Shown here one piece after another: positions 9,792 through 24,699 of a stretch of DNA of 26,511 nucleotides. Origin of the DNA: a virus; the IMG/VR virus record IMGVR_UViG_3300050121_000021, positions 1-26,511 of that record; one strand, 5' to 3'. The translations under genes were made by a program, and so were the position numbers. The notes under the pieces were generated by a model. It was not told where the DNA came from. It was given only the letters and a program-made list of their open reading frames with translations, and did not search any database. Within the stretch, counting starts at the first letter, position 1. Every line of letters begins with the position of its first letter.

Positions 9792-9807
9792 TTCTTCTCT
9801 CCTTAAA

Positions 9808-10209
9808 TTATTGTTCAAACTTCTCTACAATCACACCGTATTTTTTGAGATAGTCAAGTCCTTGTAGCTTCCTGTACTCTTCTAGGTACACAACCCTACC
9901 AACCTTTGCTCTGACAAGTAATTTAGCACAGTCTAGGCAGCAAGATAAACTTAAATATACAGTGGCACCTTTTGCACTAACACCTTGCTCAAGCATTTTC
10001 CCAAGCGCATTGAGTTCCGCGTGTACTACCTCAGGATTCCCTTCCTCTGTATAATCCCACTCATTTGGACCACCACTTGCCATCCCATTAAACCCAACTG
10101 ATAGCATACCCGACTTTGGTACAATTACGCATCCAACGGCTTTTCGGGGGCACTTACTTTCTAGAGCTACTCGGGTGACTATATCCATATATAGATTGTC
10201 GTACTTCAA
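9808..10209 (-). CDS. dCMP deaminase family (ComEB-like)
   Basis: Converts dCMP to dUMP, feeding dTTP synthesis for phage replication. The 133-aa product has the zinc-binding HAE in VVHAELNALGK and the second zinc ligand pair in SLSCCLDCAKLLV; the usual P-C-x-x-C appears here as S-C-C-L-D-C. NxG-type substrate loop VGFNGMASGGPNEW precedes it. The start is TTG at 10209 with AAGGAG 6 nt upstream; this gives MKYDNLYMDIVTRVALES, the normal family N-terminus, and removes a 50-nt overlap with the preceding gene. A longer frame reaches 10269 but adds unrelated residues. Confidence 0.88.
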   Translation of the reverse strand: MKYDNLYMDIVTRVALESKCPRKAVGCVIVPKSGMLSVGFNGMASGGPNEWDYTEEGNPEVVHAELNALGKMLEQGVSAKGATVYLSLSCCLDCAKLLVRAKVGRVVYLEEYRKLQGLDYLKKYGVIVEKFEQ

Positions 10210-16495: not shown

Positions 16496-16571
16496 TGACG
16501 AGTAGCTCAGCGGTAGTAGCAATGAACTGTTAATTCATCGGTCGAAGGTTCGATCCCTTCCTCGTCAGCCA
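16496..16571 (+). tRNA. tRNA-Asn (anticodon GTT), CCA encoded
   Basis: A full cloverleaf can be drawn: acceptor TGACGAG/CTCGTCA, anticodon stem ATGAA/TTCAT with loop CTGTTAA (anticodon GTT), T arm GAAGG-TTCGATC-CCTTC, discriminator G and encoded CCA (16569-16571). The D stem has one mismatch (GCTC against TAGC). The single phage tRNA may support AAC/AAT-rich translation. Its own promoter lies at 16339-16367. Confidence 0.93.
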
Positions 16572-16599: not shown

Positions 16600-16776
16600 A
16601 TGTCCCAAGATGAATTCGGTAATGAAATCCCAGTTCCAGAAGCTATCCCAGTACTAACTGATGTTGTAGTTAAGCCCACAGAACTAGAAAAGCTGGAAGC
16701 TCTGATTGACAAGCTAGAACTAGAAAGTGTTAAAGAAGTAAAGGCAGCAATTGCTTTTATTAAAGCTCTGGTTTAA
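16600..16776 (+). CDS. Hypothetical small protein, 58 aa
   Basis: Frame from ATG 16600 to TAA 16776, 28 nt after the tRNA; an AGAGAAC ribosome site is weak but present. The product begins MSQDEFGNEIPVPEAIPV, then has a Leu/Glu/Lys heptad-like helix (PTELEKLEALIDKLELESVK) suggesting a coiled coil. Probably co-transcribed with the tRNA. No family recognised. Confidence 0.6.
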   Translation: MSQDEFGNEIPVPEAIPVLTDVVVKPTELEKLEALIDKLELESVKEVKAAIAFIKALV

Positions 16777-16846: not shown

Positions 16847-17123
16847 AACAAAGCTCCTATAAATTCCCCTCCTTATAAAGCTTTGTTCTCCTCGCAGGCT
16901 TATGACAATCTCTGCTTTCCTCCTTCTCAGAGGTTGTCTCCTTAAATAGCCCTGCATTAAAGACTGTCTAGTCCTCTCCTTCTGGATATGTCTTTAGCAT
17001 CATCTAGCTAGTCCTCTCCTTCTAGTCTAGATGATGTATTTCTAAGAATCTTCCTTCTGTTGAATATTGTATGGAATTTGGTATTTAGCCAATATAGTCC
17101 TACGAGGATTCTTAGAAATACAT
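16847..17123. ncRNA. Tandem stem-loop array with conserved pyrimidine loops, upstream of terS
   Basis: Consecutive hairpins: H1 16847-16887 (AACAAAGCT/AGCTTTGTT with inner TATAA/TTATA, loop ATTCCCCTCC); H2 16904-16938 (11-bp stem with one G-U, loop CTTTCCTCCTTCT); H3 16958-16996 (TAAAGAC/GTCTTTA and inner CTAG/CTGG, loop TCCTCTCCTT); H4 16998-17036 (14 bp with one bulge, loop TCCTCTCCTT); H5 17034-17123 (17-bp perfect stem, 56-nt interior that begins TTCCTTCT). Stems differ while loops agree, which argues for selection on stem-loops. The + strand loops contain CCTCCTT-like anti-Shine-Dalgarno sequence, the - strand loops contain AAGGAG/GGA. Strand and function are open: sRNA, leader, or DNA packaging site of the adjacent terminase. 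Confidence 0.55.
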
Positions 17124-17171
17124 TTAATTTATAGGAGACATTAGTTTCCAACTCTTCTATAGGATATTATT

Positions 17172-17579
17172 ATGACAACAACAAAGAAAGTAACCAATAA
17201 GAGCCCAAATCCAAATACGAGGTTCGACGGCCCCAAGTCAAATCGTAAAACAACTGGCGGGAATAGCAAACGCATTACTAAGAGCAAGCTTCGCATCCTA
17301 GAAGAACAGTTGCTTGAAATGAAGGATAAGGCTCTTGAAAATATCAAGAAGCAGATTGATGGTCAGGCCATTGATACTGAACAAGCCTCGGCTTCTAAGT
17401 GGTTGGTGAATAGCTTAGTGACAGTGAGTAAGGCGGCTAATGCGGAGGAGATTTCTTATAACAAACTTAAGTTTGAAGTTAAGGATTCTTTGGAGGCTGG
17501 CGAGCAAACTCCTTCTGAAATCAAAGCTGAATTACGGCCCCGTCTTAGCTTAGTATATACTGAAGTAGAAGATGATTAA
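17172..17579 (+). CDS. Putative terminase small subunit
   Basis: 135 aa. Basic N-terminus (KKVTNKSPNPNTRFDGPKSN), then a helical Lys-rich segment (RITKSKLRILEEQLLEMKDK) and an acidic C-terminus (SLVYTEVEDD). Size, basic DNA-binding front, helical oligomerisation-like middle and acidic tail fit small terminases, and it lies at the start of the late structural block. No diagnostic motif; assigned by organisation. AGGA sits 7-8 nt before ATG. Unusually it is separated from terL by about 5.3 kb of tail genes and an endonuclease gene. Confidence 0.5.
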   Translation: MTTTKKVTNKSPNPNTRFDGPKSNRKTTGGNSKRITKSKLRILEEQLLEMKDKALENIKKQIDGQAIDTEQASASKWLVNSLVTVSKAANAEEISYNKLKFEVKDSLEAGEQTPSEIKAELRPRLSLVYTEVEDD

Positions 17580-22929: not shown

Positions 22930-24699
22930 AAAAGACGGGTCCGTAATTGGACCCTCTTCTGAATTCCAACAACGATAAATTTTGTCGCTTCAGTCAGAAA
23001 TGATTGTCGAATAATCTCTCTAATTCAGGGAAACTCTCTTACAGAGACAATCCTGAGCGAAGCCTAAGTAATTAGGAACGTGCAACGATCAGTCGAAAGA
23101 CGTAACCTCAAGTGAGGCGAAACGGGAGATACCTAAACAGTTAAAGCTGTAGGTAGTGATATGATCTAATCTGCATAGTGATATGCAGCAGTATATCTAC
23201 TGGGTAAAGATTAACGACCTTTATTTAATATAAATGATTTGAATTCAGATGCGCAAATTATGTTGGTTGGTGGCGCAGCAGGAAGCTCAAAAAGTTACGT
23301 TGGATTGATGAGGCACCTACGCTTCGTTCATGATAGCGACTATAAAGCATACTGTATTCGTAAAAACTCCAGCGCTATCATGGCTTCTGGTGGTTTGTTC
23401 TGGGAAGCTGTGAAGTTATACACACAGTTTGAACCAAACATCAAAGTTAAACTTAAAGACCAAAAGATTGTTTTCCCTTCTGGCGCTGAAATCAGCTTCT
23501 CTCACTACGAGAATGATACAGCAGCTAAGAAGTATCAGGGTATCCAAATCTCAAATATTTTTTATGACGAGGTTACTCACGCTGATAACGAAGAGCAATT
23601 ATGGTGGTTATGGTCTCGCCTCCGTTCTGATGCAGAAAACGTACACTCAATGTGGTGGTCATGTAACCCTGACAATTCCAGTTGGGTTCTTAAGTATGCT
23701 ATGTGGTGGCTGTTCCCAGAGGGTCACGAGTTAGCTGGTCGTCCAGATCCAGAAAAGAATGGCAAGATTCGATACCTTCTTAGGATTGCTGGTGAACTGG
23801 TTTGGGGTGATACAAGAGAAGAATTAATTGAGAAGTATGGTAATCCTAAACTCTCTATTGAACATGAAGATCAAGTTAAACCTATTAGCTTTCAAGGTTT
23901 ATTTGGCACCATTGATGACAACCCAGATTTGCGGAAATCTAACCCTCTCTACAAATCAAATCTTCAAGCACTTCCAAAACTAGACCGTGAAAGATTGCTT
24001 TTCGGGAATTGGTTTGCAAGGCCGGATGGCAGCTCGTATTACGACAGAACAAGTTGCAAGGAACTTACTAGCATACCAAGGGAAAGAGACTTCACTAAGA
24101 TAGTCCGTGTTTTCGACGTAGCGGGCACAATTCCCCATGACGGTAACAGATCACCAGATTACTTTGCTAGTGTCAAGATGGGTAAGCTAGTGTCTGGAAA
24201 TTACGTCATCCTAGATATAGTGCGTACACGTATTACCTTTGGTAGTTGGCTGGAACATATACTAGGTCTTGCAAGAGAAGATGGTCCTAATGTGGATATC
24301 GTTCTTGGTGAAGATCCTAACCCCGCAGCCAAAGCAGCAATCAACTTGCTGGCAAGAGAGATTATTGAAGCGGGTTTTGTTTGCAAAACCAAACGTGCAT
24401 CTGCTGGCAAGCTTGATTCTTTCAGACCTTTCGCAGCAGCAGCAGAGTTAGGTGCTGTAGATATTGTGAAAAACTGTGGGAATGACTTATGGAATAAGAT
24501 TGTTAGCAATAATGACTTCTTCTATAAAGAGTTGGAAAACTTTGATGGTACTCGAAAGGGCGGTGAACTGGGCCACGACGATCTCGTCGATTGCTGCTCT
24601 CTAGCATTTATGTACTTAGCCCAGAAAGTTCACATCGGAAACTTCCTCCCCGGCATCCAATCAATTGACCTCTCACAAAAGAACGCATTCAAATTCTAG
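22922..24699 (+). CDS. terL: Terminase large subunit, split by a group I intron (exons 22922-22976 and 23237-24699)
   Basis: The packaging motor that translocates and cuts phage DNA. Spliced product 505 aa. Exon 1 (18 codons plus one base) gives MSKKDGSVIGPSSEFQQR and the first base of Y19; exon 2 supplies the rest. Joined sequence EFQQRYLNSDAQIMLVGG runs into Walker A GGAAGSSKS (30-38), so the exon-1 fragment restores the N-terminal motif region missing from the exon-2 frame. Walker B is IFYDE (D129, E130). Nuclease acids: D312 in FDVAGT, E377-D378 in GEDPN, D466/D467/D470 in GHDDLVD. Without splicing, exon 1 reads into stops in the intron. Start ATG overlaps the endonuclease stop, so translation may be coupled. 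Confidence 0.85.
22977..23236 (+). ncRNA. Group I intron, td-like (IA2), 260 nt, no internal ORF
   Basis: Self-splicing-type RNA, all core elements visible. P1: exon CGAT (22973-22976) pairs with GTCG (22984-22987), giving the U-G at the 5' splice site. P2 CAGTCA-GAAA-TGATTG (22991-23006). P3 ATCTCTC (23014-23020) with GGGAGAT (23124-23130). P4 TCAGG (23025-23029) with CCTGA (23052-23056). P6a CCTAA/TTAGG (23063-23076). P7 GATCA (23087-23091) with TGATC (23162-23166). P8 ACCT...AGGT (23131-23154). P9 CTGCATA-GTGA-TATGCAG (23171-23188). The 3' end reads GATTAACGACCTTTATT and finishes in G 23236, as in the T4 td intron. P10 AAAT (22977-22980) with exon ATTT is possible. Confidence 0.9.

Follow-up and report, generated by a model that had tools for sequence, protein, structure and literature searches.

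The locus and its hairpins

The window, i.e. the whole stretch of DNA analysed (26,511 nucleotides), comes from a 26.5-kb virus record and encodes a terminase large subunit 50–53% identical to those of the Pseudomonas phages phiPMW, vB_PsaM_M1 (M1), and vB_PpS_SYP (SYP). An array of stem-loops occupies positions 16847-17124 on the + strand. It follows a tRNA-Asn gene (GTT; 16496..16571, +), detected with ARAGORN and Rfam, and a small ORF of 58 aa (16600..16776, +), seen in the sequence, which fills part of the gap between tRNA and array in the window phage and lies outside the RNA. The array is followed by a gene at 17172..17579 (+) for a small helical protein, called terS in the first-pass annotation. 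Searches of Pfam and PHROG gave no match to this gene, and the predicted structure, two long helices with a mean pLDDT of 67.7, is not diagnostic for terS; its identity as terS is unproven.

Two other features of the window were noted. In this phage group, group I introns occupy more than one site in or beside the gene for the terminase large subunit (window 22967-23188; L022, L024, L027, L031, L032, and L033), with three in L031 and two in L022; the intron of the window is just 5′ of an ORF that starts at the Walker A region, and a 503-aa zinc-ribbon-type ORF lies upstream. At 9797-9804, AAGGAGAG falls inside the listed 366-aa ligase ORF, with a TTG start at 9818; therefore, the true ligase start is probably just downstream.

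The four hairpins with pyrimidine loops reported by the first-pass annotation were found where it had placed them. H1 (16847..16887, +) has the stem AACAAAGCT..TATAA and a 10-nt loop, ATTCCCCTCC; H2 (16904..16938, +) has an 11-bp stem with one U-G wobble and the loop CTTTCCTCCTTCT; H3 (16958..16996, +) and H4 (16998..17036, +; 10+4 bp stem) carry the same loop, TCCTCTCCTT. The 16-nt repeat CTAGTCCTCTCCTTCT was confirmed to be exact at 16968 and 17008. As a conserved unit it was rejected, since a scan of viral contigs returned nine, of which only L037 has a homologous array (before a terS-like gene) and the others look unrelated. The last element, a terminal branched hairpin (P-last; 17033..17124, +), had been left undescribed although it lies inside the region annotated; an outer stem of 20-21 bp surrounds a conserved inner hairpin with the consensus TATTGCAGG..CCTGT. 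Since it has no U-tract, this hairpin is not an intrinsic terminator, and none was found at the array end; it is a candidate RNase III site.

The window has five hairpins that do not overlap and that carry CTCC pyrimidine loops on stems of 5 or more; 400 dinucleotide shuffles averaged 0.40 such hairpins and never exceeded 2. When 7 uninterrupted pairs were required, two hairpins were left, a number equalled by 1 of the 400 shuffles. At the level of the window, an origin of the array by chance is excluded.

Conservation, strand, and folding of the array

The first-pass annotation had made its reading depend on conservation in relatives, and this was found: among viral-contig loci gathered with the terminase and the terS-like protein as queries, some two dozen contigs of related phages have the same array architecture. 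Most of these show, in order, GTTTCACC, one A-rich hairpin, between two and four CU-loop hairpins, and the terminal hairpin. The A-rich 5′ hairpin yielded no consensus pairs when aligned with MAFFT, and the resulting model, of sequence only, was left unused. At L031:8833-8882, a 15-bp hairpin follows a CU-loop hairpin, a terminal element simpler than in the rest of the group. Single CU-loop hairpins were present in five isolated Pseudomonas phages. Those of phiPMW and SYP are just 5′ of tRNAs; those of PAK_P3, vB_PseuGesM_254 (Gess254), and Boevelstad are in the leader of a DUF5681 gene, directly after a near-consensus TTGACA promoter (the PAK_P3 copy, L048:18652-18684, corresponds to PAK_P3 84651-84683).

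Conserved loops over changing stems, as proposed earlier for the window, hold true across relatives. In L011, the closest relative, stems have changed with pairing and loops kept: H2 shows compensatory stem changes, H3 has had its inner stem replaced, and the loops of both are identical to those of the window; in the terminal hairpin, each arm of the outer stem has one base changed and the arms still pair. H1 has an unchanged stem and the loop ACTCCCTCTCC. For matched hairpins picked by hand, loops were approximately 77% and arms 59% identical. The terminase large subunits of the window and L011 are 98% identical over the matched part, and the terS-like proteins (window 17172-17579; L011:7152-7556) only approximately 40%. 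Together with the position of the L011 array before another gene, this points to modular exchange in the region of the terS-like gene and the array.

The surroundings of the array vary. It is before a terS-like gene in L002-L005, L008, L009, L016, L018, L037, L050-L052, L055-L057, L059, and L060, whereas in L006, L007, L011, L017, and L023 it is in front of other genes or at a distance from the terS-like gene. In L005, L006, and L023 it begins directly after the CCA end of a tRNA, and in L023 a full-consensus sigma70-type promoter precedes the tRNA pair. Only some arrays have a near-consensus sigma70 promoter close upstream; for most, no adjacent promoter was found.

The stem search was strand-symmetric, accepting Watson-Crick pairs and up to 2 mispairs of any kind. 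The 45 non-redundant stems obtained contained 26 G·T mispairs, only 2 A·C, and 8 of other kinds, an asymmetry unexpected for selected double-stranded DNA or for a − strand RNA. Folding z-scores of the + strand ranged from −4.7 to −11.2 in 20 arrays (window MFE z = −11.2) and were stronger than those of the − strand in 20/20. In the alignment of the terminal hairpin, 98.5% of cells were paired and 40 were double-change cells, compared with 12.9 in shuffles. The covariation score was 0.686, compared with 0.257 for shuffles, which ignore relatedness, and at most 0.151 for slid versions, which keep it. On its training members, the covariance model of this hairpin scored approximately 40-50 bits higher for the + strand than for the − strand, and it matched most array loci. 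At E≤1, model R1 missed the window's own terminal hairpin, whose inner arm is longer, but found the L011 copy, with which that of the window aligns. The model gave no match in phiPMW, M1, SYP, or PAK_P3. These sequence comparisons firmly indicate selection as a structured RNA of the + strand, and this RNA is probably non-coding.

The same data bear on two readings offered in the first-pass annotation. One is a packaging site beside terS, which would be recognized by the terminase as double-stranded or extruded DNA. An array adjoining a terS-like gene in many phages and the exact 16-nt repeat of the window phage would fit such a site; however, the excess of G·T over A·C mispairs is against it, the repeat is not kept beyond the loop core in most relatives, and the array is sometimes several genes away from the terS-like gene (far from it in L006, L007, L011, and L023). 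We consider a packaging site highly improbable. The other reading is a − strand RNA sequestering CsrA/RsmA through AGGA loops, in the manner of CsrB/RsmZ. The − strand loops are indeed AAGGAGAGGA; but GGA loops occur on this strand only, where the G·U pairs of the stems become A·C mismatches and folding by z-score is the weaker one in every array, and the neighbouring genes are on the + strand. Such a sponge is extremely improbable.

Complementarity between loops and ribosome-binding sites

TCTCC was found in 32 of the 38 distinct loops, where 8.5 were expected from composition; the loops range from 7 to 19 nt in length. The UCUCC core is complementary to AGGAGA, the commonest Shine-Dalgarno (SD) hexamer near start codons of these phages when SD motifs help to select the starts. 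With starts selected independently of SD, TCTCCT was the best of 64 pyrimidine hexamers in matching the opposite-strand gene starts of the array phages. All starts were taken from a crude ORF caller. When loops were matched to the start regions of their own phage, the real loops were above the mean of composition-matched shuffled loops in 11/11 phages and individually below 0.05 in 7/11, the exceptions being G004, phiPMW, SYP, and Gess254. Because SD sequences all complement the 16S tail, any CU-rich loop matches some of them, and few hexamers are possible.

The preferred SD differs among phages with the loop. GGAGA is more frequent than GGAGG in all phages with TCTCC loops; PAK_P3, with the loop TTCCTCCTCCTTC, has 37 GGAGG and 14 GGAGA; and in Gess254 and Boevelstad, with the loop TTCCTCCTTC, the top site is AAGGAG. 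Loop core and SD preference thus appear to move together, which is support and not proof, because the phages compared are related, non-independent samples and GC content may contribute.

This covariation also bears on the possibility that the array is a multivalent RNA, CsrB-like, that binds a phage or host protein specific for CU-rich loops (for instance, as a decoy for S1, Rho, a KH protein, a toxin, or a ribonuclease). Protein sponges usually look like this array, with one conserved loop repeated on stems that are free to vary; however, loop length varies over the 7-19 nt given above, the core is UCUCC or CCUCC according to the SD that each phage prefers, as is predicted by pairing and not obviously by a protein motif, and a candidate protein was not identified. 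We regard a protein sponge as unlikely, while giving it some weight.

The loops pair better with starts of genes opposite to the structural operon than with starts of genes on its strand. GGAGA was present at 56/219 opposite-strand starts and at 36/246 starts on the structural-operon strand (p = 0.0035), a modest difference. A similar trend between early and late SD sites was observed in M1, which has no array, and the single-hairpin phages phiPMW, SYP, and PAK_P3 show the opposite trend or none. Because M1 trends alike, the early/late difference was rejected as proof of function, and the start-site comparison is only suggestive of one class of genes as the target of the loops.

Control in cis was considered as well, with the array as leader of the downstream operon acting on translation, transcription, antitermination, or mRNA stability and having no role in trans. 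In its favour are the short DUF5681 leaders of PAK_P3, Gess254, and Boevelstad, in which the hairpin comes just after the promoter, and the PAK_P3 loop, in which CUCCUU stands against AAGGAG of the same gene. Against it, the downstream gene varies, being terS-like in some phages and another gene in L006, L007, L011, and L023; SD sequences of downstream genes are poorly matched by the loops, as with the SD-like site AGGAT of the window gene at 17172; and the hairpins of phiPMW and SYP are before tRNAs, outside any gene leader. A 12-nt pairing of H1 with the leader in the window (16854-16865 with 17126-17137) was rejected, as the complement is absent in L011. Taken together, a purely cis-acting leader is improbable.

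Related designs and proposed role in translation

A search of Rfam at gathering scores assigned no family to the array; the window matched only tRNA and group I intron, and five array loci only tRNA. Neither Rfam nor the literature searched, whose coverage was incomplete, contained a description of the array RNA. Among sub-threshold Rfam matches of two arrays (window and L057) was ar14. Covariance scores with RF02344 ar14 were 15.3 bits for the window, 19.6 for L057, and at most 12.6 for whole phage records, the gathering cut-off being 58.8. Members of the ar14/cuckoo family (NfeR1, CcsR1-4) have three hairpins with identical CCUCCUCCC anti-SD loops on highly differing stems, and NfeR1 silences mRNAs via these redundant loops (PMC10746234). 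Like alpha-r14/cuckoo RNAs (RF02344), the array has several hairpins with conserved CU-rich anti-SD loops and divergent stems. The loop is different, UCUCC(U) in the array and CCUCCUCCC in cuckoo; the latter motif was found in none of the 45 listed loops, which share UCUCC/CUCC instead. Furthermore, the array is phage-borne and next to tRNAs, whereas alpha-r14/cuckoo is encoded on Alphaproteobacterial chromosomes, and it has in addition a branched terminal hairpin and, in most relatives, the A-rich 5′ hairpin. With scores far under 58.8 bits and a different loop motif, membership was rejected: alpha-r14/cuckoo is the closest known design, an analogue of the array and not its family.

Regulatory RNAs of the 3′ETS type, which are freed from a tRNA transcript as trailers, act as sponges of sRNAs where known. 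The array is likewise proposed to be a regulatory RNA from a tRNA transcript, but its proposed targets are SD sequences. Phage T4 has rnaC and rnaD, stable non-coding RNAs located directly after a tRNA and with no known role (PMC3014915). Placement next to a phage tRNA is their only likeness to the array, and they were rejected as homologues because neither has CU-rich anti-SD loops. Abundant RNAs near tRNAs and the terminase region, sRNA1 and sRNA2, are known from the distantly related Pseudomonas phage PAK_P3 (PMC4933390); the array has a similar location, but these RNAs were also rejected as homologues, since they have no CU-loop hairpin and the one of PAK_P3 sits elsewhere, in the DUF5681 leader. 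The endoribonuclease RegB of T4 targets GGAG SDs of early phage mRNAs (PMC3014915). GGAG SD sites are also the proposed target of the array; RegB is a protein that cleaves, whereas the array RNA would mask.

Of the three interpretations in the first-pass annotation, the CsrA sponge did not hold, the packaging site was disfavoured, and the SD-blocking RNA of the + strand gained support from the excess of G·T over A·C mispairs, the folding of this strand, covariation, and phage-specific complementarity between loops and SDs. Judged from sequence, an anti-SD mechanism has more support than the other readings considered; that the array is a tRNA-linked phage RNA repressing translation by SD pairing is about as likely as not. 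According to this anti-SD mechanism, the array would be co-transcribed with the upstream tRNA(s), its 5′ end released through tRNA 3′ processing and its 3′ end through cleavage, by RNase III, in the long hairpin that ends the array. The anti-SD loops thus exposed, three to five in number and redundant, would pair with GGAGA-type SDs and keep ribosomes from loading, mostly at phage genes of the opposite transcription unit and perhaps also at host mRNAs. In the structural operon, many genes, among them the one immediately after the array, would be spared because their SDs match the loops poorly.

A broader proposal, which we put forward only tentatively, is that the arrays form an undescribed phage RNA family serving as a global regulator of translation in lytic infection, with several redundant anti-SD loops tuned to the phage's own SD consensus, turning down one set of phage (perhaps also host) mRNAs and sparing the poorly matching structural operon. 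Little is known of trans-acting regulatory RNAs in strictly lytic phages; for T4, none has been functionally characterised according to a review (PMC3014915). The array would also be a natural example, from outside Alphaproteobacteria, of a design with multiple anti-SD loops. If the loops do track the phage's own SD, they would provide a directly testable RNA route to the timing of translation, parallel to RegB of T4.
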